Source: Spirosoma foliorum
Lineage (GTDB): Bacteria; Bacteroidota; Bacteroidia; Cytophagales; Spirosomataceae
NCBI RefSeq assembly: GCF_014117325.1
Contig: NZ_CP059732.1
Location: 930,001 to 994,000, forward strand
DNA length: 64,000 nt
Direction: 5' to 3'
The position numbers and the translations under genes were made by a program. Positions 44,581-64,000 of the stretch are shown here, in pieces. How positions within the stretch are numbered: the stretch's first letter is position 1; every line of letters starts with the position of its first letter. The notes beneath the pieces were generated by a model. That model saw nothing but the letters and a program-made list of their open reading frames with translations. It was not told where the DNA came from and did not search any database.

Positions 44581-44964
44581 ATGAATTTATTATTTACGAA
44601 ACAAAGAGGCTCCCTCTTTGCATTGACTGGCTTTTTGCTTTGGCTAAGTGTAAGCAGTGGTCTACTGCCCGTTCAGCAAAGCTGCCAATTCAATGCAGCG
44701 GGTAGTTGTTCGACCCAGCCAGAAATGGCCAATTGGGTCAGGACACTATCAGATCATATACACCTACAAAGGCAATCAGTTCAGCAGGAACTCATCGTCT
44801 CTCATTCCGACAACTATCGGAAACGCGATGGATTACCGGCAGAGGCCATCTTACCGCAGAGGTTGGCTCCAGGTCAGGGTGCCATGTCCTTTCATCAACT
44901 CTACGAAACTCACTGTTATCAGCGCACGGGTGCTGATGATCCATCTCCACTAACTGAGCTATAA
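44581..44964 (+). CDS. 127-residue secreted or anchored partner protein of the giant gene
   Basis: Unrecognised family. A 127-residue protein with an N-terminal hydrophobic segment (about residues 11-30, FALTGFLLWLSVSSGLL), either a signal peptide or an anchor, then a soluble part. It aligns without gaps over the full length with the protein at 59634: both are 127 residues, share K7 Q8, L12 F13, L20 W21, W52, T55, L71 and end in H111 C112-x-Q114 R115 T116. Two bases separate its TAA from the ATG of the giant gene. This position strongly suggests a dedicated helper or partner of the giant protein; the role is unknown. Confidence 0.8.
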   Translation: MNLLFTKQRGSLFALTGFLLWLSVSSGLLPVQQSCQFNAAGSCSTQPEMANWVRTLSDHIHLQRQSVQQELIVSHSDNYRKRDGLPAEAILPQRLAPGQGAMSFHQLYETHCYQRTGADDPSPLTEL

Positions 44965-44966
44965 CC

Positions 44967-47900
44967 ATGCAGCACCTATACATGATGATTTCTCGACAAA
45001 AGACCTGGGGGGCAATCCTGGCAGGTCTATGGCTGTGTCTGCTGACGGCTAGTGGACTGATGGCTCAAGTACCCTCTTGTGGACCGAACCAACTATTGAC
45101 GGGCTATTTCGCTGGAGCCACTACCGTAGTGAGTACTACCGGTACAGTTACCAGTGCGACCAGTGTGCTTGGGGTAGCCGATGGCGTAACACCAACGCTG
45201 AATGCCAATTCCAGCGTGACGCTCGACATGGGCAGCGTGGTATCGGCCGGAAATAGTTTAATTTTTACCTATAAATCAGCGGATGCAAACGCGCCATTAC
45301 AGGTATTGGTAGCTAGCTCAGCAGCCGGACCCTATACCAATATCGCCCAGTTGCCCGCGTCAACGACGTTGACGACATCGTCGATATCGTTACCGCTAGA
45401 TACGCGCTATGTGCAGCTAGCCACCACGGGTACGGTGTATTACCCCGATGCGGTCACCTATCCTGTTTATAAGTGCGTAAATAACCCTGCCCCGACCTGT
45501 GTGGCCGGGCAAACCTTATTGTATTACCCCGCAGGCTCACAAGGGGTTAATGGAACAACGGGGACGGTTACTACTAGTACCAATGCGACCGGTCCTGCTG
45601 ATGGAGCCGTGGCCACAGTAAATACAAATGGTTCTATAACGTTGGACTTTGGGAGCGTGGTGGCGGCAGGAAATGTCCTCTCATTGGCCTATTATTCCCA
45701 GTATACATCTACCTACGCAACGCCCATGCAGGTGTTGGTGAGCAGTACAGGCGCGGCTGGTTCGTTTACCAACATTGGTTCGTTTCAGCCAACTTCCAGT
45801 GCGTCTGTAACGAGTGGCAGTCTTATGTTGCCCCTGGATGCCCGGTATGTCCAATTGGTAACATCGGGTACTTATTCAACTTATTATATCGATGCCTTAA
45901 CCTATCCCTTGTATTCCTGCGTCACGCTACCCAGCACGGCTTGTGCTTCGGGGCTACAATCGGTAGCTTATAACGCGGGGGCTCAGGGACTCAACAATAC
46001 AACGGGTACGGTGACCAATAGCACCAACGTGATCGGTGTACCTGATGGTACGGTAGCAGCACTAGGTGCCAACTCGTCCTTAATTGTGGACATGGGCAGT
46101 GTGTTGGGAGCTGGTAAGACTCTGACGGTTACCTATTCAGCCGCCAATGCTACGGCACCGATGCAGATCTGGACGGCTACGGCTGTAGGCGGTCCCTATA
46201 CCTTCATTGGTACGATGCCTGGTAATACGGCTACTACCACGGGGCAAATCACTTTACCCCTGGGGGCTGAGTACATTAAGATGGTCACCAGTGGTACAGC
46301 TTATTCAGTCGATGCGCTGACCTATCCGGTGTATAGTTGTGTAACTAACCCCAGCACCAGTTGCCCAACGGGTCAGGTGTCGGTGAGTACTCAGAGTGGC
46401 GCCCAGGGAGTGAACAATACGACGGGTACGGTCACCAATAGTACTAATATCCTGGGTACCTCCAATGGCAGCCTGGCAGTACTGAGCGCCAGTTCGTCGC
46501 TGATTGTCGACATGGGCAGCGTGATTGCTGCTGGTAATCAGCTAAACTTTACTTACCTGTCGGCCAACACGACGGCTCCATTGCAGATTTTGGTGGCGAC
46601 GAATCTGGGTGGCCCCTATACCAACATTGCTCAGTTGCCCGGCAGTACGGCTAGTACAGTGAGCAGTGTGGTATTACCCGTAGGGGCGCGTTATGTACAG
46701 ATGCAGACCACGGGTACTTCTTATTCGGTGGATGCGGTGAGTCAAACGGTCTATAGTTGCGTGGCCAACCCGGCCGCCTGTGCTGCAGGCCAGCAGTCTA
46801 TTAGTTATCCGGCGGGTGGAGCGGCTTCTGTTTATACGACGACGGGCACGGTATCCAGTCCCAGCAATGTCACAGGAGTAGTTGATGGAGCGTATACTGT
46901 AATCGCTAACGGCACCTTAACGCTGGATCTTGGCAGTACGGTAGCTGCTCCTAATGTCTTGTCCTTTACGTACTATTCTCAGTACCCCGCTGCTCTTGCC
47001 TCCCCCCTGCAGGTTCGGGTAGCTACTACGCCAACTGGCCCCTACACGACTATTAACAGGCTGCCGCCCGGTACAACGAATAGTACCATTTACCTGGACT
47101 TGCCCACGAATGCACGCTATATACAATTAGTTTCGGTCGATGATTGGTCGGCCTATTTTGTCGATGGATTATCCTATCTGGCTTATGCTTGTATTACGCC
47201 CACCTCAACGAGTTGTGCGGCTGGTCAGCGGTCGGTAAGCTATCAGACGGGAGCACAGGGTGTAGGGGCTACCACCGGAACGGTAACCAATCCGACTAAC
47301 ATTGTGGGCGTATCGGATGGTGCAGTGGTCTCGCTGGCCGCCAACTCCTCGTTCAATGTGGATATGGGCAGTGCCTTGCCTGCGGGTACGGCGTTGACAT
47401 TAGCTTATTCATCGGCCAATACGACGGCACCCATGCAGGTGCTGGCAGCTAGTAGTGCGGGTGGCCCCTATACCTTAATTGGTTTGGTGGCTGGCTCGAC
47501 CAGTAGCAGCAGTCAGCCACTGACCTTGCCCATCACAGCTCAGTATATTCAACTCAAAACAACTGGCACAGCTTTCTCGCCAGATGCCATTACCTATCCG
47601 GTGTATACTTGTGTCACCCCGCCGAATACCAAGTGTGCGACGGGGCAGACCCTGGTAGGTTACACGCAGGGCGCCGTGGGTACTAATGGGACCACGGGAA
47701 CCGTCTCCAATGCAACCAATGCGTCGGGGAGTCCGGATGGAGCGGTGGCTGGTTTGAATGCCAACTCGTCGATTACGCTGGACATGGGAAGTGCGGTGAC
47801 GGCGGGCAATAGCCTGATCGTTACCTACTCGTCGGCCAACACCACAGCGCCGATGCAGGTGCTGGTGGCCAGCAGTCTGGGTGGCCCCTATACTAATATT

Positions 47901-50900
47901 GGTCAACTGTCAGGTAGTACCGCCACGACGAGTAATTCGATCCAGTTGCCAGTAGCTGCGCGCTATGTGCAGCTTCAAACGACGGGCACCACCTACTCGG
48001 TAGATGCAGTGACCTATCCTATTTTTAGCTGCGTGAGTCCGCCATCGACCACCTGTGCCAGTGGTCAATCTAAAGTCAGCTATACCAGCGGAGCCCAGGG
48101 AGTAGGTACTACTACGGGTACAGTGACCACAGCTACCAATGCGACGGGGAACCCGGATGGGAATCTGGCGGCCCTGAGTGCGAACTCTTCGTTAATTCTG
48201 AATCTGGGGAGCGTGGTTTCGGCCGGTAATTCGATCAACCTAACGTATTTATCCGGTAATACTACAGCTCCATTACAGGTGTTGGTGGCTACGGCTGCTG
48301 GTGGGCCCTATACCAATATTGCTCAATTGTCGGGTAGTACGTCCAGCAACACGGTCAGTATAACCTTACCATTAAATGCGCAGTATGTCCAATTGCAAAC
48401 TACAGCGACTAACTATTCAGTGGATGCGGTGACCCAGACGCTGTACAGTTGCGTTTCGAGTCCAGTCACGTCCTGTTCAGCGGGTCAGGTGTCGAGTAGT
48501 TATCAGACGGGTATCCAGGGGGTAGGAGCTACCACCGGAACGGTGACCAATAGTGCCAATGCAACTGGCTCCCCTGATGGTACCGTGGCCACAGTGAATA
48601 CCAATGGTTCTGTAACGCTGGATTTTGGAAGCGTTGTGGCGGCTGGCAACGTACTCTCGCTGGCCTATTATTCGCAGTATACCTCTACCTACGCAACGCC
48701 CATGCAGGTTTTGGTGAGTAAGACGGGGGTGGTTGGCTCGTTTACTAATATCAGTTCGTTTCAGCCGACCTCCAGCGCATCCATGACGAATGGAAGCTTT
48801 ACCCTACCCCTGGATGCCCGTTATGTCCAATTGGTGACATCGGGTACTTATTCGACCTATTATATTGATGCGTTGACTTATCCGATTTATACCTGTGTGA
48901 CACCGATCTCTAGCACCTGCGGAGCGGGTCAGCAGTCGGTGAGTTATCAATCAGGGGCTCAAGGATTGAATAATACCAGTGGTACGGTGACTAACAGCAC
49001 GAATTTGTTTGGTTCGCCGGATGGCGCGGTGGCGACGGTATCGGCCAACTCGTCGGTGATTCTGGATTTGGGTACAGTGGTTACCGGCGGTAACAGCCTA
49101 CGAGTTACGTACTCGTCGGCCAACACGACAGCACCGATGCAGGTGCTGGTTGCTACCAACCTGGGCGGACCCTATGTCAATATTGCCCAGTTAGTAGGCA
49201 GTACAACGACGGCGACTCAAACGGTTAATTTACCTATTGATGCTCGCTATGTGCAACTAGCGACGACAGGTACGGCTTATAGTCCTGATGCGGTCACTTA
49301 TCCAGTCTACACCTGTGTGAGTAACCCGGTTTCAATCTGTTCAGCGGGTCAGCAAGTGGTGAGTTACAACACGGGGGCCGTGGGGTTGAACGGGGCGACG
49401 AGTGTGACGAATCCAACTTACGGGACGGGTACGCCCGATGGTGCCTATGCGGTGATCGCTGCCAATGGGGTACTGACGCTGGATCTGGGTTCGGTGGTAG
49501 CGGGAGGCAACACGGTGAGCGTGAACTATAAATCGGGTGATTTAGTCGCGCCCATGCAGGTGTTGGTGGCCACCAATTTGGGTGGCCCTTATACAACTAT
49601 AGGTCAGATGCCAGCCTCAACGGCCAATACGACGGGGAGTCTGACACTTCCCGTCGATGCTCGGTACGTGCAACTCCAAACGAAGGCGACGACTTATTCG
49701 GTGGATGCGGTTACGCGTCCGGTCTATACCTGCGTTAGCTCGACCATTACGAGTGGCATTGTGTATTTAGACGGGAACATCAATGGGGTGCTAAATAGTG
49801 TCGAGCAGGGAGTAGGCGGTGTTACGGTGAATGCCTATGATGCCAGTGGTAATCTGGTAGGAACCACAACGACCTCTGCGGGTAATCCGACACTGAATAT
49901 TCCAGCGGGCTATTATAATTTCAGTAACCTGACGGCAGGCCAACCCTATAAACTGGAGTTTAGCAATTGGCCTTCGCAGTATAGCCCTTCAGTATATGGA
50001 ATCAACGATGGAACAACCGTGCAATTTATACAGGGGGTTACCCAGAATAACGATTTAGGCCTGTATTTACCCAGCAGTATATGTAGCCTGCAAGATAACT
50101 CTCGAATGGTATTTGGGACAGGATTATCAGGGGCGTCAACATCTGTTGGCTCATGGGATTATCTTGATAGAGGTAAAGCCGTTTATGGTGCCAGTAGTGG
50201 GGGTGGATATAGTATCACTAATGATATAGCATCTTCAAAGATTGGGGTTCCCTTGGGAGTGGCATCACAACGTCCGACTAATTGGGTATATATGTCACCA
50301 CTTTCGACAAATATACCTGGAGTGTTTCCTCAGGCCCCAGATGGGTCGTCGGCTATATATATCGCTGATTATAACGGCCAAAATGGTGACCAAACTTACC
50401 AGGGTACAAAGTTATTGGTGAAATTATCAGACTTGGGCATTAATGTAGGAAGTACAGCTACATCAGTAGGAGGAAATCCATTTGGTGTACAGGGATTAGG
50501 CGGGCTAGACTTCTCGCAATCAGGCGATACGATGTATGTCGTCAATATGTCTAAAGGTACTTTAGTAGGCGTAGATGTAAGTCAGGTAGATTACAATAAT
50601 TTGCCGGCAACTAAACCTACTTCGGCCTTTGAAATAACACCACCATCCTCATTAGCAAACTGTAGTGGAGGTGTTTACCGGCCTACTGCTCTGAAACAGT
50701 ATGGTGGCAAGATTTATATGGGCGGAGTTTGTGATGCAGAAATTAGTCAGAGTAATGCCGATTTGAAAGGAGTGGTGCTGGCGTATGATCCGGCTAGTGG
50801 AACATGGAGTAAGGCCTTAAGTTATCCCATTACATTTACTGGTGGAGGTACTTCTGCTGGTGCAGAAAGCGGAACAGTACAATATAGTTGGGGGAATACT

Positions 50901-53900
50901 ACCTCTGCTGGGTTGCAGCCTGTTATGTTGGATCTGGCATTTGCCGACAATGGAGCGATGGTAATTGGTACGACAGACCGTCATGTATATGGAGCACCAA
51001 CAAGTGCTAATCAGACTGGATATGTTATGGGAGCCTGGCCTAATGGTGATGGGACTTATACATTGGAAAGTCAAGGGAAATTAGGGCCATATACTGGACT
51101 TCCAAGTTTTAACTCAGGAGATCCAGGGGCACCTGATGGGCCGGGTGGGCAAGGATGGTTCTTTCAGCAGAACTCGGCAGGAGGACATCCATATGCTTTC
51201 AATGGAGGTTTGTATATTAAAACGGGTACAAACTATGTAGTAGCTGGATATACAGATGCGGGTGGTTTATATTTGATGGGAGCCAGTTATTTAAATTTGA
51301 CCACCGGGATTGGGGAGTATAGTACTCCATTGATTGGCGGACAAAAAATAAGCCGTATCACGGGTACTGATCAGGTCTGCGATGCGATACCTCCTATTGA
51401 AATCGGTAACCGGGTCTGGAAAGATACTAATGGTAATGGCATTCAGGATGCAGGCGAGCCTTCTCTGGCTGGTGTAACGGTTGAGTTGCGGGATGCCAGT
51501 GGTAATCTGGTAGCTACCGCCGTGACAGATGCCAATGGCAACTATATCTTCTCCAATCAGGCGGGTAGTAGTACCACTAGTCAGAAATACGGCCTGCCCA
51601 TTACCCAGAATACCAACTATACGATTGATGTTGCGTCCTTGGGTACGGATCCCTCTACGACTGGCTTGACCTTGACAAATATTTCTCCATCACTAGGTGA
51701 AACCGCTGGGAGTGTGAATACCGGGTCTACCATTGACAATAACGATGCCTTCCTGGTCAATGGCTTGCCTACGATTAGTATAAAGACAGGACCTGACGGA
51801 ATCATCAATCATAACTATGATTTTGGTTTCATCGGTTCGAGCTTTGATCTGGCCCTGACCAAGTCGTTAGCTCCAGGCCAGGCTTCGATTATCAAGCCGG
51901 GCAGCAATGTCACTTTTGCCGTGGTTGTCTACAACCAGGGATCATCGCCAGCCTACAACATCCAACTGGCTGATTATATTCCGGCTGGGCTGACGCTGAA
52001 CGACGCGAACTGGACAGCTAATGGCTCAACCGCTACGCTGAAAACGCCTATTTCGGGCTCCCTGGCCGCTGGCAGCAGCACCACGGTGACCATTACCTTC
52101 ACCGTCAGCAGCACGGCGTCGGGGCCAATTATCAACAAGGCTGAAATCAGCAGTGCCGATAATGATACCAACCCAAATAATACCCCACCCACCGATGTGG
52201 ACAGCACACCCGATACCAACCCCACCAACGATGCGGGCGGTAATCCAAACTCGGGCAGTGATAACAGCATCACGGGTAACGGGAAAGGAACACCGGGTGA
52301 TACCAACCCGGCAACCGATGAGGACGACGAAGACCCCGCTATCATTTACGTACAACCCTGTACGTTAGGGGTCAATCTATTAACCACTGAGGCCCACTGT
52401 GGCAAGGCCGATGGTCAGGCCACGGTCACGGTCAACACGGGTGTTGCTCCCTATACCTACGCCTGGAGTACAGGAGCCAGCACCTCGGCCATTACGGGTT
52501 TGAGTGGTGGTCAGACGTTTACAGTAACGGTGACCGATGCCAATGGCTGCAAGGATGTGCTGGTGGGCACCATCCAGAGCACAGGCGGGCCAGTCTTGTC
52601 CGGTACGGCCGTAGCGGCCAGTTGCCAGCAGGCCACGGGCAGTGCCAGTGTAACGGCCACGGGCGGCACAGGCACCTATACCTACCTGTGGAACACGGGT
52701 GCTACCACGGCTACGCTCAGTAACGTAGCGTCGGGCACCTATACCGTAACGGTAACGGATGGAGCAGGCTGCGTAAGTGCCCTAGCCGTCATGGTGCCTA
52801 GCACAAGCCCCTTATCGGTGGTGGCTACGCCCACTTCCTCCAGCTGTTTGGGAGCCAATGGCAGTGTAACTCTGACAGTGAGTGGTGGTAGCCAAGCTTA
52901 CAATTATGTCTGGAATACGGGTGCAACCACGCAGAACCTAACTGCGGTAGCGGGTGGCGCCTATGAAGTAAAAGTAACCGATGCAAACGGCTGTACGGCC
53001 ATCGCCACTGCCGTAGTGCCCAATACAAGTGCTCCCACGGTGAGCGGCACACCCACCAACCCGATCTGTTTTGGTACCTCGACGGGTAGCGTCAGTCTGG
53101 TGGTGAGTGGCGGCAGTGGAGCCTACAGCTATCAATGGGATAATGGGTCAACGGCTCAGAGTCTGACGGGTGTTCAGGCTGGTATTTACAATGTCGTCGT
53201 CACGGACGGATCGGGTTGTCGGAGTGGAGCTAGCTTCACGCTGACGCAGCCAAGCCGGATCATAGCGGACATCCAATCGTTGTCGGCGGTATGTAACGCC
53301 CAGGGTGGCGTAACGGGCGGCACGCTACAAATCGTGAGTGTAGTAGGGGGCACCCCTGGCTACAGCTATCTGTGGAGTACGGGTAGTGCGGCAACAAGCC
53401 TAACAGGTCTGGCGGCTGGCACCTATTCGCTAACGGTGACCGACAGTAAGAATTGTATCGCATTAGGTCAGGCCGTAATTGATCCGTGGCCCACCTGTGC
53501 GAAAGCTTCCTTAGGAGACTACGTATGGCTGGATACGAATCAGAACGGCCAGCAAGACCCCACCGAAACTGGAGTCGCCAATGTGACAGCCGTGCTGCAC
53601 GACGCAACCAGCGGCACAGTGGTAAGCACGACGGTGACCGATGGGAATGGTAAATACTTATTTACGAATTTAAATCCAGGGGATTACTATGTAGTCTTCA
53701 CGGCTCCCTCGGGCACGACCTTCACGACGGCTAACACTGGCAACGATGCCACCGACAGTGATGTGGCGAGTCTGACCGGTCAGAGTGGTAGCACGGGTGT
53801 GTACAGTCTGACGGCGGGTCAACAGAATCTGACTGTGGATGCTGGTCTGATCCCACTGAAAGCTTCCTTAGGCGACTATGTATGGCTGGATACCAATAGT

Positions 53901-56900: not shown

Positions 56901-58511
56901 AATACAACAATCGCGAGCCTGTCGGCGGGCCAGAGTGTAACGCGCAACATCACCTTCACGGTGAGTTCGAGTGTGCCAGGTAGTTTGACCAACACAGCTG
57001 AGATCAGTAGTGCGAGCAACGCTCAGAATCTGCCCGACGTGGATTCGACGCCGGATAGTAATCCGAACAACGATGGTACGCCGGTGAATGACGATACGAG
57101 TGGTGATCATAAGAGCAACCCGTCTCAGGATGAGGACGATAGCGATCCAGAGGTGATCACGGTTACCCCAACCCCGGTCTTCGACCTGGCGTTGAAGAAA
57201 ACCCTCGCAACTGGCCAGTCAGCCAATGTAACCCCTGGCAGTTCAGTGACCTTCACGGTGACGGTCTATAACCAGGGCAACGTGGATGCCACCAACGTTC
57301 AGGTGACGGATTATATCCCAACTAGCCTAACGCTGAACGATGCCAACTGGAGTGCGAACAATGGCTTAGCGACGCTGAATACAACGATCGCGAGCCTGTC
57401 GGCAGGCCAGAGTGTAACGCGGAATATCACCTTCACCGTGAGTAACAGTTTCGTAGGCAGTTTGACGAACGTAGCTGAGATCAGCAGTGCCAGCAATGCG
57501 CTGAACTTGCCTGATAAGGACTCTAATCCGGATAATAATCCGGGCAACGATGGCACACCCATCAACGACGATCTGAATGGTGACCATAAGGGTAATCCTG
57601 CTGACGACGAGGATGATAGTGATCCTGAAGTGATTACGGTGAGTCCAACTCCGGTCTTCGACCTGGCCTTGACCAAGAAATTGGCTAGTGGTCAGAGTGC
57701 GACGGTGGTAGCGGGTGGTCAGGTAACCTTCACGGTGACGGTCTACAACCAGGGTAATGTGGATGCCACCAACGTTCAGGTGACGGACTATATCCCAACG
57801 GGCCTAACGCTGAATGATGCCAACTGGACAGCCAGCAATGGTCAGGCGACACTCAATACGGCGATTTCGAGTCTGTCGGCAGGCCAGAGCCTAACGCGGA
57901 ACATCACCTTCACGGTGAGCAGCAGTTTCGCGGGCGGTAATTTGACCAACGTGACCGAGATTAGCAGTGCCAGCAATGCCCAGAATCTGCCTGATGTGGA
58001 TTCGACACCGGACAACAATCCGAACAACGATGGTACGCCGAAGAATGACGTCATCAATGAAAATGGCAAGACGGGCGGTGATGAGGATGATAGTGATCCA
58101 GAGGTGATCACGGTAACTCCGCTGAAGGCCAGTCTGGGCGATTATGTCTGGTACGATAACAACAAGAATGGCCAGCAGGATGCCAATGAGCCGCCAGCGG
58201 TTGGGGTAACGGTGACGCTCTATAATGCGAGCACCAACCAGCCCATCAGTACCACGGTAACGGATGGCACGGGTCATTACCTGTTCACCAATCTGGATCC
58301 AGGCACCTACTATGTAGTCTTCACGGCACCGAGTGGGGCGGCCTTCACGACGGTTGATACGGGCAACGATACGACCGACAGCGATGCTGGGGTAGGGGGT
58401 AAGACGGGGAACTACACCCTGGCAGCGGGCGAGCAAAACCTGACGGTAGATGCGGGTCTGATTCCGAAGTGTACGAGTCCAAATTGTTTTACAACCATTA
58501 CCGTGAAATAG
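44967..58511 (+). CDS. Giant 4514-residue repeat surface protein
   Basis: Exported giant adhesin-like protein. Signal peptide about residues 1-33 (LLTASGLMAQ). Order of domains: eleven repeats of about 141 residues (38-1589), an SdrD B-like domain, a propeller-like region (about 1700-2130) homologous to the one in the gene at 36163, SdrD B (about 2143), a DUF11 domain, five SprB-type repeats, three near-identical SdrD B domains of 119 residues (2846 on), two DUF11, five SprB-type repeats, three DUF11, one SdrD B and the tail CTSPNCFTTITVK. Linkers such as DEDDSDPEVITV are acidic. SprB repeats occur in gliding adhesins, and SdrD and DUF11 in wall-surface proteins. No type A sorting domain is at the end. 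Cell-surface adhesion is the likely job. Confidence 0.9.
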   Translation: MQHLYMMISRQKTWGAILAGLWLCLLTASGLMAQVPSCGPNQLLTGYFAGATTVVSTTGTVTSATSVLGVADGVTPTLNANSSVTLDMGSVVSAGNSLIFTYKSADANAPLQVLVASSAAGPYTNIAQLPASTTLTTSSISLPLDTRYVQLATTGTVYYPDAVTYPVYKCVNNPAPTCVAGQTLLYYPAGSQGVNGTTGTVTTSTNATGPADGAVATVNTNGSITLDFGSVVAAGNVLSLAYYSQYTSTYATPMQVLVSSTGAAGSFTNIGSFQPTSSASVTSGSLMLPLDARYVQLVTSGTYSTYYIDALTYPLYSCVTLPSTACASGLQSVAYNAGAQGLNNTTGTVTNSTNVIGVPDGTVAALGANSSLIVDMGSVLGAGKTLTVTYSAANATAPMQIWTATAVGGPYTFIGTMPGNTATTTGQITLPLGAEYIKMVTSGTAYSVDALTYPVYSCVTNPSTSCPTGQVSVSTQSGAQGVNNTTGTVTNSTNILGTSNGSLAVLSASSSLIVDMGSVIAAGNQLNFTYLSANTTAPLQILVATNLGGPYTNIAQLPGSTASTVSSVVLPVGARYVQMQTTGTSYSVDAVSQTVYSCVANPAACAAGQQSISYPAGGAASVYTTTGTVSSPSNVTGVVDGAYTVIANGTLTLDLGSTVAAPNVLSFTYYSQYPAALASPLQVRVATTPTGPYTTINRLPPGTTNSTIYLDLPTNARYIQLVSVDDWSAYFVDGLSYLAYACITPTSTSCAAGQRSVSYQTGAQGVGATTGTVTNPTNIVGVSDGAVVSLAANSSFNVDMGSALPAGTALTLAYSSANTTAPMQVLAASSAGGPYTLIGLVAGSTSSSSQPLTLPITAQYIQLKTTGTAFSPDAITYPVYTCVTPPNTKCATGQTLVGYTQGAVGTNGTTGTVSNATNASGSPDGAVAGLNANSSITLDMGSAVTAGNSLIVTYSSANTTAPMQVLVASSLGGPYTNIGQLSGSTATTSNSIQLPVAARYVQLQTTGTTYSVDAVTYPIFSCVSPPSTTCASGQSKVSYTSGAQGVGTTTGTVTTATNATGNPDGNLAALSANSSLILNLGSVVSAGNSINLTYLSGNTTAPLQVLVATAAGGPYTNIAQLSGSTSSNTVSITLPLNAQYVQLQTTATNYSVDAVTQTLYSCVSSPVTSCSAGQVSSSYQTGIQGVGATTGTVTNSANATGSPDGTVATVNTNGSVTLDFGSVVAAGNVLSLAYYSQYTSTYATPMQVLVSKTGVVGSFTNISSFQPTSSASMTNGSFTLPLDARYVQLVTSGTYSTYYIDALTYPIYTCVTPISSTCGAGQQSVSYQSGAQGLNNTSGTVTNSTNLFGSPDGAVATVSANSSVILDLGTVVTGGNSLRVTYSSANTTAPMQVLVATNLGGPYVNIAQLVGSTTTATQTVNLPIDARYVQLATTGTAYSPDAVTYPVYTCVSNPVSICSAGQQVVSYNTGAVGLNGATSVTNPTYGTGTPDGAYAVIAANGVLTLDLGSVVAGGNTVSVNYKSGDLVAPMQVLVATNLGGPYTTIGQMPASTANTTGSLTLPVDARYVQLQTKATTYSVDAVTRPVYTCVSSTITSGIVYLDGNINGVLNSVEQGVGGVTVNAYDASGNLVGTTTTSAGNPTLNIPAGYYNFSNLTAGQPYKLEFSNWPSQYSPSVYGINDGTTVQFIQGVTQNNDLGLYLPSSICSLQDNSRMVFGTGLSGASTSVGSWDYLDRGKAVYGASSGGGYSITNDIASSKIGVPLGVASQRPTNWVYMSPLSTNIPGVFPQAPDGSSAIYIADYNGQNGDQTYQGTKLLVKLSDLGINVGSTATSVGGNPFGVQGLGGLDFSQSGDTMYVVNMSKGTLVGVDVSQVDYNNLPATKPTSAFEITPPSSLANCSGGVYRPTALKQYGGKIYMGGVCDAEISQSNADLKGVVLAYDPASGTWSKALSYPITFTGGGTSAGAESGTVQYSWGNTTSAGLQPVMLDLAFADNGAMVIGTTDRHVYGAPTSANQTGYVMGAWPNGDGTYTLESQGKLGPYTGLPSFNSGDPGAPDGPGGQGWFFQQNSAGGHPYAFNGGLYIKTGTNYVVAGYTDAGGLYLMGASYLNLTTGIGEYSTPLIGGQKISRITGTDQVCDAIPPIEIGNRVWKDTNGNGIQDAGEPSLAGVTVELRDASGNLVATAVTDANGNYIFSNQAGSSTTSQKYGLPITQNTNYTIDVASLGTDPSTTGLTLTNISPSLGETAGSVNTGSTIDNNDAFLVNGLPTISIKTGPDGIINHNYDFGFIGSSFDLALTKSLAPGQASIIKPGSNVTFAVVVYNQGSSPAYNIQLADYIPAGLTLNDANWTANGSTATLKTPISGSLAAGSSTTVTITFTVSSTASGPIINKAEISSADNDTNPNNTPPTDVDSTPDTNPTNDAGGNPNSGSDNSITGNGKGTPGDTNPATDEDDEDPAIIYVQPCTLGVNLLTTEAHCGKADGQATVTVNTGVAPYTYAWSTGASTSAITGLSGGQTFTVTVTDANGCKDVLVGTIQSTGGPVLSGTAVAASCQQATGSASVTATGGTGTYTYLWNTGATTATLSNVASGTYTVTVTDGAGCVSALAVMVPSTSPLSVVATPTSSSCLGANGSVTLTVSGGSQAYNYVWNTGATTQNLTAVAGGAYEVKVTDANGCTAIATAVVPNTSAPTVSGTPTNPICFGTSTGSVSLVVSGGSGAYSYQWDNGSTAQSLTGVQAGIYNVVVTDGSGCRSGASFTLTQPSRIIADIQSLSAVCNAQGGVTGGTLQIVSVVGGTPGYSYLWSTGSAATSLTGLAAGTYSLTVTDSKNCIALGQAVIDPWPTCAKASLGDYVWLDTNQNGQQDPTETGVANVTAVLHDATSGTVVSTTVTDGNGKYLFTNLNPGDYYVVFTAPSGTTFTTANTGNDATDSDVASLTGQSGSTGVYSLTAGQQNLTVDAGLIPLKASLGDYVWLDTNSNGQQDPTETGVASVTVVLHDATSGTVVSTTVTDGQGKYLFTNLNPGDYYVVFTAPAGTTFTTPNSGNDATDSDVASLTGQSGSTGVYSLTAGQQNLTVDAGLIPLKASLGDYVWFDTNQNGQQDPTETGVASVTAVLHDAVSGTVVSTTVTDGQGKYLFTNLNPGSYYVVFTAPSGTTFTTPNSGNDATDSDAGAGGTTGVYNLTAGQQDLTVDAGIIPVPVFDLALKKTLAAGQSANVTPGSSVTFTVTVYNQGNVDATNIQVTDYIPTGLTLNDANWTANGSLATLNTAIASLSAGQSVTRNITFTVGSSVPGSLTNTAEISSASNAQNLPDVDSTPDNNPTNDGTPKNDVINENGKTGGDEDDSDPEVITVSPAPVFDLALKKTLGPGQSATVVAGSNVTFTVTVYNQGNVDATNVQVTDYIPAGLVLNDANWTASNGTATLNTAISSLSAGQSLTRNITFIVSNSFAGGSLTNTAEISSASNAQNLPDKDSTPDSDPNNDGTAVNDDISGDHKNNPSQDEDDSDPEPITVTPLCTALGLNTGTTLALCGQSNGIATVVVNAGSGVAPYTYQWTNAQGTAIGSSSVVQGLAPGMYTVTVTDSKGCSGQKMVTISSTNAPAIVAQVASTSCGLANGSASVQVSSGSGNYTYQWTTSTGVVVGSTASVNNLAAGTYTVNVVDANGCNSMTSVVVGNSTPLAIVATAQNAVCGQANGSITAQVSGGSPAYTYQWRNASGVVATSQNLTSAAPGSYSVVVTDATGCTALATANISNVVGPQVSGVPTHVKCYGTQTGSVVLTVTGGTPPIGYVWSNGSTNKDLTNVGAGVYTVTARDANGCMAVQSFTITQPTEIAAIFLPTLPTCTSLTGGSVSLVSITGGTAPYSYTWSTGATTASISGLSGGIYTLTVQDANGCIASPLAVLPTPSNCTTPVFDLALKKTLAAGQPASVTPGSSVTFTVTVYNQGNVDATNVQVTDYIPTGLTLNDANWIANGSLATLNTTIASLSAGQSVTRNITFTVSSSVPGSLTNTAEISSASNAQNLPDVDSTPDSNPNNDGTPVNDDTSGDHKSNPSQDEDDSDPEVITVTPTPVFDLALKKTLATGQSANVTPGSSVTFTVTVYNQGNVDATNVQVTDYIPTSLTLNDANWSANNGLATLNTTIASLSAGQSVTRNITFTVSNSFVGSLTNVAEISSASNALNLPDKDSNPDNNPGNDGTPINDDLNGDHKGNPADDEDDSDPEVITVSPTPVFDLALTKKLASGQSATVVAGGQVTFTVTVYNQGNVDATNVQVTDYIPTGLTLNDANWTASNGQATLNTAISSLSAGQSLTRNITFTVSSSFAGGNLTNVTEISSASNAQNLPDVDSTPDNNPNNDGTPKNDVINENGKTGGDEDDSDPEVITVTPLKASLGDYVWYDNNKNGQQDANEPPAVGVTVTLYNASTNQPISTTVTDGTGHYLFTNLDPGTYYVVFTAPSGAAFTTVDTGNDTTDSDAGVGGKTGNYTLAAGEQNLTVDAGLIPKCTSPNCFTTITVK
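45078..49733 (+). repeat. Eleven tandem repeats of about 141 residues, Cys-delimited
   Basis: Each unit opens with CxxGQ, continues with TTGTVT..TN..G.PDGAV, NxxxxLDMGSVVxAGN, the strand APMQVLVATxxGGPYTNI and YVQLxTTGTxYSVDAVTYPVYxCV, and the next Cys begins the next unit. Two subtypes exist: most have YSSANTTAPM, while units 2, 5 and 9 have YYSQY. Units 2 and 9 are almost the same, and 3 and 10 share QGLNNT, hinting at a higher-order period of seven units. I do not recognise the domain. Confidence 0.85.
53502..54560 (+). repeat. Three 357-bp tandem SdrD B repeats
   Basis: Units start at 53502, 53859 and 54216, exactly 357 bp apart. Each codes for KASLGDYVW(L/F)DTN, NGQQDPTETGVA and NLTVDAG. 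The nucleotide sequences are close to identical, including silent positions, which suggests recent duplication or gene conversion. Confidence 0.9.
54561..58125 (+). repeat. DUF11 and SprB repeat blocks
   Basis: DUF11 units begin with PVFDLALKKTL at 54561, 55032, near 56700, 57172 and 57652, each about 157 residues and ending in the acidic linker DEDDSDPE. Between 55510 and 56690 lie five SprB-type units of about 80 residues with APYTYQW and VTVTDxxGC. An earlier SprB block is at 52370-53490 and an earlier DUF11 near 51838. Confidence 0.8.
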
Positions 58512-58517
58512 AAGGGG

Positions 58518-58598
58518 CGGTATTCGGTTTACGTTCTGAAAACCGAATACCGTGACCTGCTTTCCTTTTGTCATCCGACGAAGGAGGATGACAAAAGG
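58518..58598 (+). terminator. Two hairpins after the giant gene
   Basis: The first stem (cggtattcggttt, 58518-58530, with 58540-58552) is perfect over 13 bp and starts 7 bp after the stop. The second stem (ccttttgtcatcc, 58564-58576, with 58586-58598) is also perfect over 13 bp and is a short form of the TGTCATTCCGACG repeat. Either may end transcription of the giant gene. Confidence 0.65.
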
Positions 58599-58638
58599 CT
58601 ACCCAGTAACACCTGTTGAGTCACCACCAAGGGAGATT

Positions 58639-59022
58639 CTAAAGTATGAACGGATTAATGACTAACAGACCATCGATGGAAACGAAATCCGATACATTAC
58701 GGGTCACCAGCGTACAGCCGTGTACCAAAGCCGTTGCTGCGATAATAGCATCAGGGAGCTTGATTTTGCGTTGGCGACGAATGGCAATGGTTTGGTTTGC
58801 CACCGTTTTGTCCAATGGTAAAATAATAGAGTCGGCAATTAGAGCTTCCATGCTTCGTAAAGCCGTCTCGCTTTCAAAAGGAAAGCCTAATAACTCAATT
58901 TCTGTTATGATCGAAATAAATAGTCGTTCTCTGGTAGCTTCTCTAAGAAATAAACTGGCTTTGGTATCTGAAATGCCTTTCTCCATGTATATCAGGATGT
59001 TGGTATCTAGGAGCGTCCCCAT
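58639..59022 (-). CDS. vapC: VapC-like PIN-domain toxin
   Basis: A 127-residue PIN-domain ribonuclease. The acidic site is seen as LLDTN (Asp6), TEIELLGF (Glu43), LPDAIIAATA (Asp91) and RNVSDF (Asp112). VapC toxins cut specific RNAs, often initiator tRNA or rRNA, when free of antitoxin. Its start overlaps the end of the antitoxin gene by 16 bp. It lies between the two giant-protein cassettes, on the opposite strand. Confidence 0.85.
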   Translation of the reverse strand: MGTLLDTNILIYMEKGISDTKASLFLREATRERLFISIITEIELLGFPFESETALRSMEALIADSIILPLDKTVANQTIAIRRQRKIKLPDAIIAATALVHGCTLVTRNVSDFVSIDGLLVINPFIL

Positions 59023-59243
59023 TCGTTTCGAATTTCGGTTAAGTATTTTTCAAAGGACTCCGTATCCAGATCGGGTATACTCCCATTATGCTTATCGAAT
59101 AATGACTGATTTTCCTGGTTCATGGAGGAAGTGGTTTCTTCCTGCACCTGAATAGCGTCGACAAAATCCATCGATTTCAGTAGTTCGACGAGATAGCTCA
59201 TTTTTTGACGATTGCTAACCCTGATTTGAATAGTCATTGGCAT
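59007..59243 (-). CDS. Antitoxin of the VapC-like toxin
   Basis: A 78-residue protein, upstream partner of the PIN toxin. The N-terminal half (TIQIRVSNRQKMSYLVELLKS) could form a small DNA-binding or dimer domain, and the acidic C-terminal half (DLDTESFEKYLTEIRNEWG) would bind the toxin. I do not recognise a named antitoxin family in it; the call rests on overlap, order and size. Another ATG at 59237 would shorten it by two residues. Confidence 0.75.
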   Translation of the reverse strand: MPMTIQIRVSNRQKMSYLVELLKSMDFVDAIQVQEETTSSMNQENQSLFDKHNGSIPDLDTESFEKYLTEIRNEWGRS

Positions 59244-59262
59244 ACTGGTTTTGCGTATCGAA

Positions 59263-59295
59263 CAAAGTTAACCGAAAAAAAAGCAGCATAACAAA
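59263..59295 (-). promoter_or_regulatory. Bacteroidota promoter for the toxin-antitoxin operon
   Basis: On the minus strand TTTG (59295-59292), a 21-nt spacer and TAACTTTG (59270-59263) fit TTG-N17-23-TAnnTTTG. The antitoxin ATG lies 19 nt after the -7 box, so the leader is short. Spacing equals that before the amine oxidase gene. Confidence 0.55.
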
Positions 59296-59633
59296 AGGGT
59301 GTAGAATGACATCAGAAGACTTGAATACAAAGGCTAACTGTATGTAAATCCTATTCGTATATAGATAACCGTTAGTTAATGAAATGATAAAAAGTAACAC
59401 CTACTCACCGTAAAAACATGACGAATCATCAGCCAGAACCAAACCCCACTTTTCCCAATTGAGACGCTTTTTGGTCATTCCGACGACAGGAGGAATCTCA
59501 AAGCCTCCCATAAATCAAGCTTGACCGGGCCGCTAGAACCATGATAAAAAACACCCCTTGCGCCAACGACCTGGTTAAACCAACGAGCAGTCTTTCGTAC
59601 TAATTAGTCAAATTGTAACTTAAAAATGTAATT
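59296..59633. other. Intergenic region with remnant of the hairpin element
   Basis: About 340 bp between the toxin-antitoxin promoter and the second cassette. At 59471-59525 lies ttggtcattccgacg, aggaggaatctcaa and caagcttga, i.e. the left arm and loop end of the 44441-44530 element without the right arm. No clear promoter for the gene at 59634 was seen. Confidence 0.55.
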
Positions 59634-60017
59634 ATGGAACGCATTTTGTATAAACAAAAAGTGATACTATTTATTATAACCAGCTTTATCCTTTGGGTAA
59701 GCCTTCAACCAAATCAAGTGACAGAAACACAATTGCCAGATCGGAACCTGTCTGGCCAACCGACCGTAAGCCCCCATCAATGGGCCTGGCTTTCAACAAT
59801 CCAGAACGCTGTATACACAGGCAAACAGCGCTCCGACGCTGTACTGTATGATGACTTGGGAGCGCATGCTACCAGTTACCGAAGGTTAGACCGCTTACTA
59901 ATGCCCTGGAACCGACAGGGAGCACCCCCGCCTGGTGCTGGCTATTACTCGATTTTCGTATCACACTGTAATCAACGCACCATAGACGAATATCTCTATC
60001 CATTCTCCAAATCATGA
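59634..60017 (+). CDS. Second 127-residue partner protein, paralog of 44581
   Basis: A 127-residue protein with an N-terminal hydrophobic segment (about residues 10-24, ILFIITSFILWVSL) and a soluble rest. It is colinear with the protein at 44581; the invariant residues include K7 Q8, W21, W52, T55, L71 and HC-x-QRT at 111-116. Its stop overlaps the start of the next giant gene (ATGA at 60014), so translation is probably coupled. No known domain is recognised. That two copies keep the same length and the same place before giant genes supports a common function with them. Confidence 0.8.
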   Translation: MERILYKQKVILFIITSFILWVSLQPNQVTETQLPDRNLSGQPTVSPHQWAWLSTIQNAVYTGKQRSDAVLYDDLGAHATSYRRLDRLLMPWNRQGAPPPGAGYYSIFVSHCNQRTIDEYLYPFSKS

Positions 60018-63000
60018 CCAGGCAACACCTATTCCGACAGATGCTTCGTTCGAGCCTGCCCTATCTGGGTGTGTGCAGGAAGCAAATTCCATTAGATACG
60101 ATACCGGCGAAAAAGCCACCCACCGATCAAGCTATGGGACAAACAACTACGCAAATAATGACAAGGATGAAACAATCCTTCATATCTGCTGCCCAGTATG
60201 CTGGGAAGCGATATAGCACCGTTTGGTGGCTGTCGCCTTTATTGATCCTGTTCGTGTTGACCTTCCCCGCCAGTAGCATGGTTAATAAAGTGGTGAAAGG
60301 CGCGGCTGATTCAATAATAGGCACGATCACCAACCTGGCCAGTGTTACTGATGCAGCTATTTCAAAGGTAGGTCCAACTACGGTTAGCCCAAGCGGAGTG
60401 GTGAGTTATACCTTGCTGGTATCTAACCAAGGCACTACCGATCTGACGAACGTAACGGTGACCGACCCCGTTGCTGCCAACTTCAACGTGACCAGTGTTT
60501 CCTGTAATGCGGGCAGTGGCAGTGGAACAGCGGCTTCGTGTCCAACCAGTCCCACCCCGGCAGGACTCCAATCGGGGCTGGTGATTCCGAGCATTCCGGC
60601 AAATTCGGCGGTGGCGCTGGTGGTAACCGGAACCGCTACCGGAGCAATTGGGAGTAGTATTACCAACACAGCTACGGTTTCAGTGACTGGCGATACCAAC
60701 TCCGGCAACAACAGCTCGACGGCGGTAACTCAGATCACCAATCCCTCCTGTACAGGTACGCAATCGGTGTACAAGCTAGACCCTACAGCAACGGCAGCCG
60801 CCAATAGTGTTTCAGCCAATGGCGGTACCATCAGTTTGGTCTATAGCCTGAGCAGTGGCCCCGCCGTTACGGGAATTGGCAATAGTTTCACCGTACCCCT
60901 GCAATACTCCGACCTGAACGCCTATAATGGCACTGACCATCAGTGGAGTCTGATTGGTTCTATGTTTAGCTATTCTCCCTATGGAGTTGGTAGTAATGGC
61001 TTTTCCATCGGTCCAGCTACGGCCATTGCAGGAGTGGGGTTGGAAACTGGTTCTATTTTTAATGGCCTCCCTGCCAACAATCTACAGCAGGAAGCATGGG
61101 CAGGAACGGCTAGGGATGCCGAGTTTAAGAACTGGATACAGACTGGCGCTATTGACCCAGTCGGCACCTTCTCGATTACAGTGGGTGATATTCCCGCTAC
61201 GCCCTCGGGTTATTCTCTAGTATCGAAGGGCTTCACCATTGAAGGAGAAGCGAATGCCAGTACGAATGGCAATGGATTTGACCAGGCGGGCTTTTGGCTT
61301 CACCCTGTAGAACAAACCCTCTATTATAATGCAGCTAATACTTCATACCAAATTCCTTTAGAGGTTCCTTACAATAGTTCGCATAGCTATATCTACACAG
61401 CTTTTAGCTATCAGTCGATAAATGTGCGTGCAAATGCAGGTGGAATCCGTGGGGCTGTTTTTACGGGTCAGGTTGTCTTTCAAAATACCGCTAGCTGCGG
61501 AGCCGATCTGTCAGTTACTAAAACGCCTTCGTCGGGCACGGTGCTGGCTGGTAACCCGGTCACCTATACCGTCGTCGTATCGAACGCTGGGTCATTGGCT
61601 GCCAATGGCGCGACCGTGAGCGATCCAGCCGTAGCCAACTTTACGGCTACCAGTGTGAGTTGCTCGGGAGCTTCGGGTGGAGCGGTATGCCCCACTGTCA
61701 GCGTAGCCTCGTTGCAATCGGGTAATGTTACGATCGGTACGTTCCCTTCAGGTAGTAGTGTTACGCTGGTAATAACGGGTCTGGCTGGTTCGAGTGGCAC
61801 CATTGCCAATACGGTCACTGTAACCCCACCCAATGGCACATCTGACTTTAATATGGCTAATAATAGTCGTACGGCTACCACGCCAATTGGTGTAGCTATA
61901 GTGGCCAATCCTGAATCCACCACGACCTCGCCCGGCACAGCCGTAACCATTCCGGTGTTATCCAATGATACAGACAATGGCTCACCGGCTACCACCTCGA
62001 ATGTGACCTTGCCCACTATCTCGACACCCCCGGTAACGGGAACGGCCACCGTCAACAACGATGGTACAATTACCTATACACCGCCACCAGGCTATAATGG
62101 GCCAGTCAGTTTTACGTACACCATTTGCGACAAAACTACCCCAACTGTGTGCAGTACGGCGGTAGTGACGGTCAATGTACAGTGTGATAAGTACACGTTG
62201 TTTATAGGTGAACAGAATTTTACGACTGGCATTCCTACAACACTGGTAATGACTTATAGCAGTGGTGGTGCAACCATGAAGTGTGAGATTCCCGGAGGAG
62301 GAGGTGGCGAAGGGATAGCTGCTAACCCAGCCACTAACTTAGTCTATATTGCATCAGCAAATAGTAAAACCCTGCAGATTTACAATTATGCTACGGGTAC
62401 CTATGTGACTTCGATTCCTTTTTCCGGTAGCAAGCCAAATGGTTTTGGAGAGATATTGGATATATCGGGAACTGCTGATGGGGCCTATTTATATTTAAGT
62501 ACATATAGTGGTCTAAGAAAGTTTAGTACAGCAACCAATACGGTAGTAGCCACTTATCCCTTGGCGAATTTTTTATCGACTCCGGTCGAACTATGGGGAA
62601 GTGCGGTTAATCCTACAACAGGTAATATCTACGTATCTACAAACTTTCGTAACGTTGGGTCGACGATTCAGTATGTATCCCCTACGTTAACAGGCTCTCC
62701 CACACTGGTGGCAACTGCTCCTAGTGGATATTATTACCGAGGGCTTGTCTTTGACGCCAGCGGAAATTTATGGGCAATACTGTCTGGCGATGGGGTTAAT
62801 GGAGCTGATAAGTTGGTGAAAATAAACGGTACAACAGGAGCCGTTATTGCAACATATACATTCCCCACACCAAGTTCACATGCGGCAAGTACGACCAATG
62901 GGAATGTAAATGCTTGGGATATTACAGTTGGTCCTGATGGCAATATGTATATTTCGACATATAATGGTGACTGTGTAACCAAGTTTGATGTAACAACAAA

Positions 63001-64000
63001 CTCTTTCTCAACCTATATACCATATGTAGCTAATTCGGGAGGAAAGACATTGCAGTTTGTTTGTGGCGATGTACAATGTCCAAGTGCATTACTGGGTGGT
63101 AAGGTTTGGGCGGACACCGACAAAGACGGTCAACTGGACGGTGCCGAAACGGGGGTAGCCAGTAGTACGGTCACGCTCTATAATCAGAACACAGGTGCAC
63201 CGGTGAGCACGACAGTGACGGATGCTTCTGGCTCATATCAGTTTACGACCTTGCCAGCAGGCAATTATTATGTGAAGTTTACAGCACCTACGGGGTATAC
63301 CTACACCACAGCTAATGTGGGTAACGATGCTACCGATAGTGATGTTAGCTCAACAACAGGAACATCGGGAACTACAGGTACATATAGCCTAACGGTAGGA
63401 CAGGCCAATCTGACGGTCTATGCCGGGTTAATTCCTCCTCAGCCACCGATCGCGACCAGTGATATCAATAATACGCGGATCAACACGCCGGTACCAGGCA
63501 ATGTGCTCACCAACGACACCGATCCCCAGGGTCTGCCGTTGACCACCACGTTGCTCAATCAGCCCACCAACGGGACGGTGGTGCTGAATCCCGATGGCAG
63601 CTATGTCTACACCCCGCCCACCAATTTCACGGGCACGGTCAACTTCTGCTACAAGGCCACCAACACGGCGGGTCTGAGCAGTACGGCCTGCGTGACCATC
63701 AATGTGATCCCCGATCCAACCACGCCGGTCAACCATCCGCCGGTGCCGAATGATGATGACACCCAGACGACGATGGGTACCCCGGTGAAGGTGGTGATTC
63801 TGGCCAACGACACCGATCCCGACAGCAACACGTCAGGTAACGGTCAGTTGAACACGCCCACCTTGCTGGGTCAACCTGCCCAGGGTACGGCGGCAGTGAA
63901 CCCCGACGGCAGTGTAACCTACACCCCACCGGCGAACTTCACGGGCGTAGTTACCTTCCCCTACCAGGTGTGCGACAAGGCGAGCAGTCCGCTGTGTGCC
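60014..64000 (+). CDS. Second giant surface protein, 5' part, open to window end
   Basis: The frame is open from the ATG at 60014 through all 1329 codons to the last base of the window. Domains: N-terminal region, hydrophobic segment about residues 66-90 (VWWLSPLLILFVLTFPASS), DUF11 (about 115-245), an unassigned beta-rich part (245-490), DUF11 (about 495-625), a cadherin-like or Ig domain with NDTDNGSPA (about 637-725), a propeller-like part with IYNYATG- and GNLWAIL-type strands (726-1024), SdrD B (KVWADTDKDGQLDGAETGV, about 1029-1141) and two further NDTDP domains. ATGs at 60134, 60158 and 60167 are other possible starts, nearer to the hydrophobic segment. Coupled to the 127-residue gene. 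Likely adhesin; the end and any tail are outside the window. Confidence 0.85.
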   Translation, partial: MTRQHLFRQMLRSSLPYLGVCRKQIPLDTIPAKKPPTDQAMGQTTTQIMTRMKQSFISAAQYAGKRYSTVWWLSPLLILFVLTFPASSMVNKVVKGAADSIIGTITNLASVTDAAISKVGPTTVSPSGVVSYTLLVSNQGTTDLTNVTVTDPVAANFNVTSVSCNAGSGSGTAASCPTSPTPAGLQSGLVIPSIPANSAVALVVTGTATGAIGSSITNTATVSVTGDTNSGNNSSTAVTQITNPSCTGTQSVYKLDPTATAAANSVSANGGTISLVYSLSSGPAVTGIGNSFTVPLQYSDLNAYNGTDHQWSLIGSMFSYSPYGVGSNGFSIGPATAIAGVGLETGSIFNGLPANNLQQEAWAGTARDAEFKNWIQTGAIDPVGTFSITVGDIPATPSGYSLVSKGFTIEGEANASTNGNGFDQAGFWLHPVEQTLYYNAANTSYQIPLEVPYNSSHSYIYTAFSYQSINVRANAGGIRGAVFTGQVVFQNTASCGADLSVTKTPSSGTVLAGNPVTYTVVVSNAGSLAANGATVSDPAVANFTATSVSCSGASGGAVCPTVSVASLQSGNVTIGTFPSGSSVTLVITGLAGSSGTIANTVTVTPPNGTSDFNMANNSRTATTPIGVAIVANPESTTTSPGTAVTIPVLSNDTDNGSPATTSNVTLPTISTPPVTGTATVNNDGTITYTPPPGYNGPVSFTYTICDKTTPTVCSTAVVTVNVQCDKYTLFIGEQNFTTGIPTTLVMTYSSGGATMKCEIPGGGGGEGIAANPATNLVYIASANSKTLQIYNYATGTYVTSIPFSGSKPNGFGEILDISGTADGAYLYLSTYSGLRKFSTATNTVVATYPLANFLSTPVELWGSAVNPTTGNIYVSTNFRNVGSTIQYVSPTLTGSPTLVATAPSGYYYRGLVFDASGNLWAILSGDGVNGADKLVKINGTTGAVIATYTFPTPSSHAASTTNGNVNAWDITVGPDGNMYISTYNGDCVTKFDVTTNSFSTYIPYVANSGGKTLQFVCGDVQCPSALLGGKVWADTDKDGQLDGAETGVASSTVTLYNQNTGAPVSTTVTDASGSYQFTTLPAGNYYVKFTAPTGYTYTTANVGNDATDSDVSSTTGTSGTTGTYSLTVGQANLTVYAGLIPPQPPIATSDINNTRINTPVPGNVLTNDTDPQGLPLTTTLLNQPTNGTVVLNPDGSYVYTPPTNFTGTVNFCYKATNTAGLSSTACVTINVIPDPTTPVNHPPVPNDDDTQTTMGTPVKVVILANDTDPDSNTSGNGQLNTPTLLGQPAQGTAAVNPDGSVTYTPPANFTGVVTFPYQVCDKASSPLCA

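Follow-up and report, generated by a model that had tools for sequence, protein, structure and literature searches.

A small open reading frame that accompanies the signal peptide of giant repeat proteins in Spirosoma and may act as a translated leader

In this study, we examined a 64,000-bp stretch of the Spirosoma foliorum chromosome (NZ_CP059732.1, positions 930,001 to 994,000; here termed the window), in which two small open reading frames (ORFs), C1 and C2, stand before the reading frames of giant repeat proteins that are predicted to lie at the cell surface (Table 1). The small gene is associated with the signal peptide of the giant protein, not with the giant body. On the basis of its sequence, we tentatively propose that the small ORF upstream of giant 1 serves as a co-translated leader setting the translation of the giant, a reading to which we give a probability of roughly 0.4. 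A preliminary description of this DNA had proposed a duplicated two-gene cassette whose small product is a dedicated helper for the export, anchoring or folding of giant adhesins. The link to giant genes withstood a check for homologs lying far from such genes, because seven of the eight copies with DNA context directly precede a giant repeat protein gene; the helper idea has been weakened.

Association with the signal peptide of the giant protein

Three types of giant body were compared, and they occurred as often without the small gene (six occurrences) as with it (six), which leaves a helper dedicated to the folding or anchoring of the giant unsupported. The signal peptide behaved differently: the MQNLY...AQV type (the cassette signal peptide) was present in all six giants with the small gene and in none of the six without it (Fisher test, p = 0.002, a merely descriptive value because the copies are not independent). 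The giant-1 type has the small gene in the window genome (complete, 8.85 Mb; G000 in the genome comparisons), in S. telluris (G016) and in the Spirosoma metagenome-assembled genome (MAG) 48-14 (G028), and lacks it in genome G006, at a second S. telluris locus and on contig 34 of S. panaciterrae (G021). The type starting with VxQDLNANG has it on S. panaciterrae contig 49 (VYQDFNANG there) and on contig 30 of MAG 48-14 and, as judged by eye, lacks it at the end of contig 1 of that MAG. The YTLCGAKTSFTLTAG type has it in S. telluris and lacks it in the window genome (giant 3, 62% identity over 318 positions) and in S. aerolatum (G004; 58% over 319). The S. telluris giant that stands before a SprF-like gene carries the small gene, and the corresponding giants of the window genome and of S. 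aerolatum do not; the end of this giant, which has several frame breaks, and the next gene were read by eye. Excluded from the 12 occurrences were giant 2, which has another body and a relic signal peptide, and giants of other body types without the small gene, such as window 36163-39396 and S. aerolatum L038:5255 and L038:14478.

The N-terminus of the small ORF is itself related to this signal peptide, as indicated by a genome search, a DNA-level match and alignment scores. When 36 genomes of the genus were searched with the six cassette signal peptides, the top six matches were those giants (E ≤ 2.5e-22), all with the small gene, and the next were small ORFs, namely S. telluris copy 1 (4.5e-10) and S. 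aerolatum (9.9e-5), followed by weaker matches from 0.001 up. For S. telluris copy 1, the small ORF and the giant signal peptide also matched at the DNA level, with none of 1,000 shuffles scoring as high. For every one of the eight small N-termini, the top-scoring giant was ahead of 32 other N-termini resembling signal peptides. The relation was shown directly for two copies and by score for the rest.

Junction between the small ORF and the giant gene

Six of the eight copies are followed directly by a giant with the cassette signal peptide; C2 is followed by giant 2, whose signal peptide is a probable relic (by eye, its first codons, MTRQHLF, resemble one), and the S. aerolatum copy has no giant directly behind it. 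In all six intact junctions, the small ORF ends 2 nt before the giant ATG (stop-NN-ATG). Four of these junctions have TGA as the stop codon and an additional ATG overlapping it, which is why ATGA overlaps appear in ORF lists. A search of the 36 genomes with the junction motif, allowing up to two mismatches, yielded 24 matches, spread over 16 genomes, compared with 11 for a reversed control pattern; 6 were the cassettes, and the other 18 comprised one in genome G014 with one mismatch and 17 with two. At zero or one mismatch there were six matches, five of them cassettes and one the G014 match.

The preliminary description had placed the stop of each small gene at the start of a giant frame. The 2-nt gap to the ATG at 44967 stood; the ATGA overlap at 60014 exists but is probably not the real junction. 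In the six other junctions stop-NN is followed by ATG; at C2, AGG stands in that place, and an S. aerolatum giant at the matching position begins with MEQTTTRYLTRM, which resembles an internal MGQTTTQIMTRM at window position 60134. For this reason giant 2 probably starts at 60134; this start is only an inferred one, because giant 2 and the S. aerolatum giant match over just 87 aligned positions of the part compared.

Conservation and codon use

Both window copies encode 127 residues and are homologous (BLASTP, a single comparison: 27% identity, E 3e-14), as had been claimed; the alignment is not gap-free from end to end, since BLASTP shows 10 gap positions in 121. Among the residues singled out earlier, H111, C112 and Q114-R115-T116 are common to C1 and C2, but conservation of W52, T55 and L71 does not extend to the family; only M1, L20, H111, C112 and R115 are invariant in the alignment of eight rows. 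Nor was a duplication of two whole genes seen, as residues 35-700 of giants 1 and 2 gave no BLASTP match at E ≤ 1e-5. By eye, the C-terminal ends of these giants resemble each other, with an SdrD_B domain and a twin-cysteine tail. The small proteins belong to no recognised family, in agreement with the preliminary description: there was no Pfam match at E ≤ 0.01 for C1 or C2, including PF11751 (the PorP/SprF barrel), no NCBIfam match for C1, C2 or P0006 (a protein from S. litoris), and no solved structure matching the small-protein profile at E ≤ 1.

Conservation is uneven along the small protein. Mean pairwise identity over the eight rows was 38% in the N-terminus, 21% in the middle, with 20% gaps, and 53% without gaps in the last 24 residues, where the pattern [YF]-x(6)-HCxQR-x(8)-LTE-x-stop is conserved. 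When ten rows were considered, the C-terminus was gap-free in nine and the HCxQR cysteine was kept in nine; the last 23 residues of P0006 are identical to those of C1, and the remainder has diverged. The conserved end is missing from the two copies that no cassette giant follows: C2 ends in PFSKS, and the S. aerolatum copy overruns the usual end to reach 166 residues. An AlphaFold model of the small protein (mean predicted local distance difference test score [pLDDT], 54) contains a helix at residues 5-25 and no confident fold beyond part of this N-terminal helix (residues 11-20 average 80, other ten-residue blocks 43-68). The middle is probably disordered in this model.

The frame of the hypervariable middle is open, with no stops in 437 codons of six copies, compared with 219 in 3,901 codons (5.6%) of the other five frames, although the nominal probability of such a frame is too small because these copies were partly chosen for openness. 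The ratio of nonsynonymous to synonymous differences per site (pN/pS) was 0.54-0.74 over 15 pairs, with pS saturated at 0.67-0.85. At identical residues, the same codon was used at a frequency of 0.31 in the middle (0.31 expected), 0.68 in the C-terminal block (0.44 expected) and 0.68 in the last seven codons (0.33 expected). The leucine codon CTA, which accounts for 11% of all leucine codons within the large ORFs of the window, lies near the junction in five of the six unbroken copies. This codon excess near the junction could reflect either a constraint at the RNA level or recent recombination.

Copies and distribution

By our reading, the small gene is present in 5 of the 36 Spirosoma genomes and absent from 31. 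Matches at E ≤ 0.01 were obtained in six genomes of the genus, including G015, which was judged spurious, and in 8 of 222 genomes of the family, of which we read 5 as real; matches at E ≤ 0.001 were obtained in 3 of 390 genomes of the order, all already seen at family level. The order sample did not include three of the positive genomes. No small gene was found outside Spirosoma in the 222 family and 390 order genomes, an absence less firm than that within the genus: all first-look candidates were scored in the genus, and a part of them in the family and order (at most 18 and 10 per genome, respectively, among the matches listed). The weak profile matches L008, L010, G015, G169 and G182 were rejected as spurious; G169 (L054), a protein of 451 aa, resembles the family in nothing but a signal-peptide-like stretch.

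Eight copies came with DNA: two each in the window genome, S. telluris and MAG 48-14, and one each in S. panaciterrae and S. aerolatum. C1 and C2 are the sole copies in the window genome (search at E ≤ 1), and a 70-aa relic in S. aerolatum was excluded from the counts. One S. telluris copy is frameshifted and an FG-GAP gene nearby is split as well; therefore, sequencing indels are possible. Two copies, P0005 (73% identical) and P0006, are known as proteins only. When 5.8 billion proteins were searched with a profile, five matches at E ≤ 0.1 emerged, all members of the family and including a shortened version of C2. None was a copy from S. telluris, S. panaciterrae or MAG 48-14; these copies thus apparently have not been called as genes.

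Discussion

We postulate that the N-terminus of the small ORF would target the translating ribosome to the Sec translocon, that ribosomes aimed at the membrane in this way would be delivered to the ATG of the giant and reinitiate there, and that the conserved end of the small ORF would set the share of ribosomes that do so. In the most specific version, the nascent C-terminal block would pause the ribosome and pulling by Sec would relieve the pause; as a result, a 4,500-residue export cargo would be made only while export works. The small ORF and the giant signal peptide would have spread jointly as a 5' cassette that became attached to giant bodies of three or more kinds. This fuller version, in which an arrest leader with its matching signal peptide forms a mobile cassette that serves cargo rather than machinery, is swapped among unrelated bodies and ties giant adhesin synthesis to export, is in our view distinctly unlikely, and less probable than the leader reading as such.

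The leader reading rests on the kinship of the N-terminus with the cassette signal peptide, the uniform stop-NN-ATG junction, the open but variable middle, the conserved end at a constant distance from the stop, the codon reuse near the junction, the model with no confident fold, the occurrence with and without three body types and an architecture like that of arrest peptides. It also fits that the conserved end has decayed where the cassette giant is gone or lacks its signal peptide (S. aerolatum and C2). According to portions of two sources, arrest peptides are recognised by an upstream small ORF, an N-terminal export signal, a spacer, a conserved C-terminus and a patchy, narrow distribution (PMC10987492, PMC7897499). 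The secretion-monitoring leaders in the papers covered control components of the export machinery. Like SecM, VemP, MifM, ApcA, ApdA and ApdP, the small ORF is of unknown function, lies upstream of a co-directed gene and has a narrow, patchy distribution. It also resembles the arrest peptides that monitor Sec or YidC in its N-terminal export signal, seen here as the relation to the giants' predicted signal peptides and the model helix, in its gap-free C-terminus and in the length of its spacer, which is about 85-97 residues when counted on the alignment, compared with the criterion of more than 30-40. Unlike in those systems, the N-terminus is related to the cargo's own signal peptide. The short distance from stop to ATG recalls translationally coupled upstream ORFs that act by termination and reinitiation (PMC6728339, PMC12548453, each seen in excerpt); unlike these, the small ORF encodes a conserved C-terminus and an export-signal-like N-terminus. 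An excerpt of one paper describes, as a proposed mechanism, a short ORF that is translated merely to supply a coupled gene with ribosomes (PMC12548453). Reinitiation without a Shine-Dalgarno motif is plausible, since such motifs are rare before overlapping genes of Bacteroidetes, occurring before 10% of them according to part of another (PMC6728339).

Several observations weigh against a leader. The gene downstream is a giant repeat protein gene, not sec or yidC, and no conserved RNA structure that could hide the start, as in secM-secA, was found at the junction. In the RNAalifold output, consensus pairs were absent around the giant start and the sole element was a weak hairpin within the giant codons, and the start region was more accessible than its surroundings in four of six junctions and slightly less so in two. 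Because of these two differences we liken the small ORF to SecM, VemP and MifM and do not class it with them; we say only that it would work like an arrest peptide of that kind. No known arrest motif was seen by eye in the small ORFs. Codon reuse also exceeded expectation elsewhere, namely in the small N-terminus (0.42, against 0.30 expected) and, less strongly than near the junction, in giant codons 9-38 (0.50, against 0.31) and the giant-1 body (0.43, against 0.33), so the excess at the junction could stem from recent recombination or from selection on the giant initiation region. Codon usage of the small ORF was not gene-like, at -0.11 to +0.01 per codon in seven copies compared with 0.10-0.31 in three reference genes, which leaves expression itself unproven. 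HCxQR and V[HR]IRG[HQ]S look as if selected as peptides, which would also be expected of a helper or a signalling peptide. With respect to the N-terminus, the best giant ranked first for six of nine small N-termini and second for three in an enlarged control; the N-terminus that outranked it for C1 was that of L054, a protein fetched for its likeness to the small profile, and L054 is assumed to be the outranker for the other two. In five other pairs of small ORF and own giant, DNA similarity was no better than in shuffles.

The alternatives share much of this evidence. A membrane-anchored or periplasmic helper for exporting, anchoring or folding the giant would account for the position directly before giants and for the retained HCxQR cysteine, and coupled translation would provide it in matched dosage. 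Set against this are the equal counts of giants with and without the gene across the three body types, the model without a confident fold, the poorly conserved middle and the many Spirosoma genomes that lack the gene, as well as giant 3, which bears a type B sorting domain and has a PorP/SprF gene behind it; we therefore regard such a helper as rather unlikely. A helper may also act on the cassette signal peptide alone. The small ORF could, by contrast, be an inert by-product of a tandem duplication of the giant 5' end that survives by carrying the promoter and initiation region. The kinship of its N-terminus to the giant signal peptide, codon usage unlike that of genes, the pN/pS values with saturated pS and the decayed copies in two genomes all fit such an origin, which is nonetheless improbable given the frame that stays open in six unbroken copies, the gap-free C-terminus and peptide motifs kept despite codon change, such as V[HR]IRG[HQ]S.

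That pattern was matched 10 times in 8 of the 36 genomes, compared with 7 matches for a control pattern; six matches lie at cassette loci, three in small ORFs and three in another short ORF, ORF B (the window match among the latter), and the remaining four (G004 elsewhere, G035, G033 and G013) look like chance. Conserved peptides are equally what a secreted precursor would leave behind, with an export signal, a variable pro-region and a C-terminal peptide released as a signal and possibly sensed by the adjoining histidine kinase with tetratricopeptide repeats (TPR). The architecture of the small ORF would suit such a precursor, as would the TPR histidine kinase downstream of SprF in the window genome, a kinase-like ORF (by eye) at the matching place in S. 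telluris and the LytTR regulator upstream; no processing site was identified, the exact 2-nt junction would go unexplained and we know of no such case in Bacteroidota, which makes a precursor a very remote prospect.

If the leader reading is true, a cargo-attached leader passed along with its signal peptide would be a different way of controlling the load of surface proteins; it is expensive to begin a 4,500-residue export protein when its export is blocked. Leaders of this kind could also account for other poorly annotated short ORFs that precede surface proteins of Bacteroidota. The literature covered, mostly as titles and abstract openings, held no paper on a cargo-attached leader of this kind.

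Neighboring genes and other features of the locus

The first part of the locus consists of a LytTR regulator, a 337-aa ORF, short ORF A, an FG-GAP/ASPIC protein, short ORF B, C1 and giant 1. Giant 1 (4,514 aa) is followed by a PIN-domain ORF on the opposite strand, C2, giant 2 (2,094 aa as an ORF), giant 3 (5,328 aa), a PorP/SprF gene and the TPR histidine kinase.

Table 1. Positions of the small ORFs, giant genes and nearby features (window coordinates)
Feature	Position	Strand	Remarks
ORF A	42195..42548	+	Fast-evolving short ORF before the FG-GAP gene; hydrophobic N-terminus
FG-GAP/ASPIC protein	42617..44170	+	Tail CSLSRCIPLQVTLVR
ORF B	44218..44541	+	Apparently decayed short ORF; QVHIRGHSF motif, then repeat
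Small ORF C1	44581..44964	+	127 aa; signal-peptide-like N-terminus, hypervariable middle, last 24 residues conserved
Conserved 3' block of C1	44890..44961	+	Residues 104-127, FHQLYETHCYQRTGADDPSPLTEL; codon reuse above expectation
Junction	44950..44969	+	CTAACTGAGCTATAACCATG: stop, CC, ATG of giant 1
Giant 1	44967..58511	+	4,514 aa; SdrD_B, DUF11 and SprB repeats; no recognised type IX secretion system (T9SS) sorting domain; tail CTSPNCFTTITVK
Predicted cassette-type signal peptide of giant 1	44967..45068	+	MQHLY...LMAQ
PIN-domain protein	58639..59022	-	PF01850, 5.3e-16; between giant 1 and C2
Small ORF C2	59634..60017	+	127 aa; apparently decayed; HCNQR kept, PLTEL end and junction motif lacking
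Giant 2 reading frame	60014..64000	+	2,094 aa; continues beyond the window to genome position 996298
Likely start codon of giant 2 (inferred)	60134..60136	+	MGQTTTQIMTRM; 116 nt past the C2 stop
Twin-cysteine tail, examples	36163..39396; 42617..44170; 44967..58511		Also in related loci

Giant 3, with its type B T9SS sorting domain and the PorP/SprF gene next to it, is arranged like SprB with PorP/SprF of type IX secretion and gliding; unlike that arrangement, C1 and C2 have no Pfam match and giants 1 and 2 have no sorting domain scoring above the cut-off. FG-GAP proteins and giants without a recognised T9SS sorting domain end in a twin-cysteine tail, in which a pair of cysteines separated by a few residues precedes a short hydrophobic and basic end. 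Among the 87 ORFs of 250 aa or more at 13 loci, 18 have this tail, including one that is probably a frameshift artefact; it may be an unrecognised sorting or anchoring tail. The FG-GAP gene was matched at E ≤ 1e-30 in 6 of the 36 Spirosoma genomes. ORF A belongs to a second family of fast-evolving short ORFs (MSKELYLLLIQGLPGLL...) that precede FG-GAP genes, with members in the window and at five related loci.

The ORF B short ORFs (in the window, L035:10851-11054 and L040:4331-4609) carry QV[RH]IRGHSF, and two of the three end in DQV[RH]IRGHSFxYG; the motif QV[RH]IRGHSF recurs with changed codons within several small ORFs. An intergenic repeat, GTCATTCCGACG...AGGAGGAATCTCA, lies near both small ORFs, at about 44421-44535, where it is palindromic, and at 59473-59510; it appears to have interrupted ORF B. 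The PIN-domain protein is possibly the toxin of a toxin-antitoxin pair. Two 915-aa ORFs of the window were rejected as duplicates of each other, as they are unrelated (FtsX/MacB and VWA, respectively). The giant-1-type protein of G006:C8 (L041) has an open frame of 11,024 codons.

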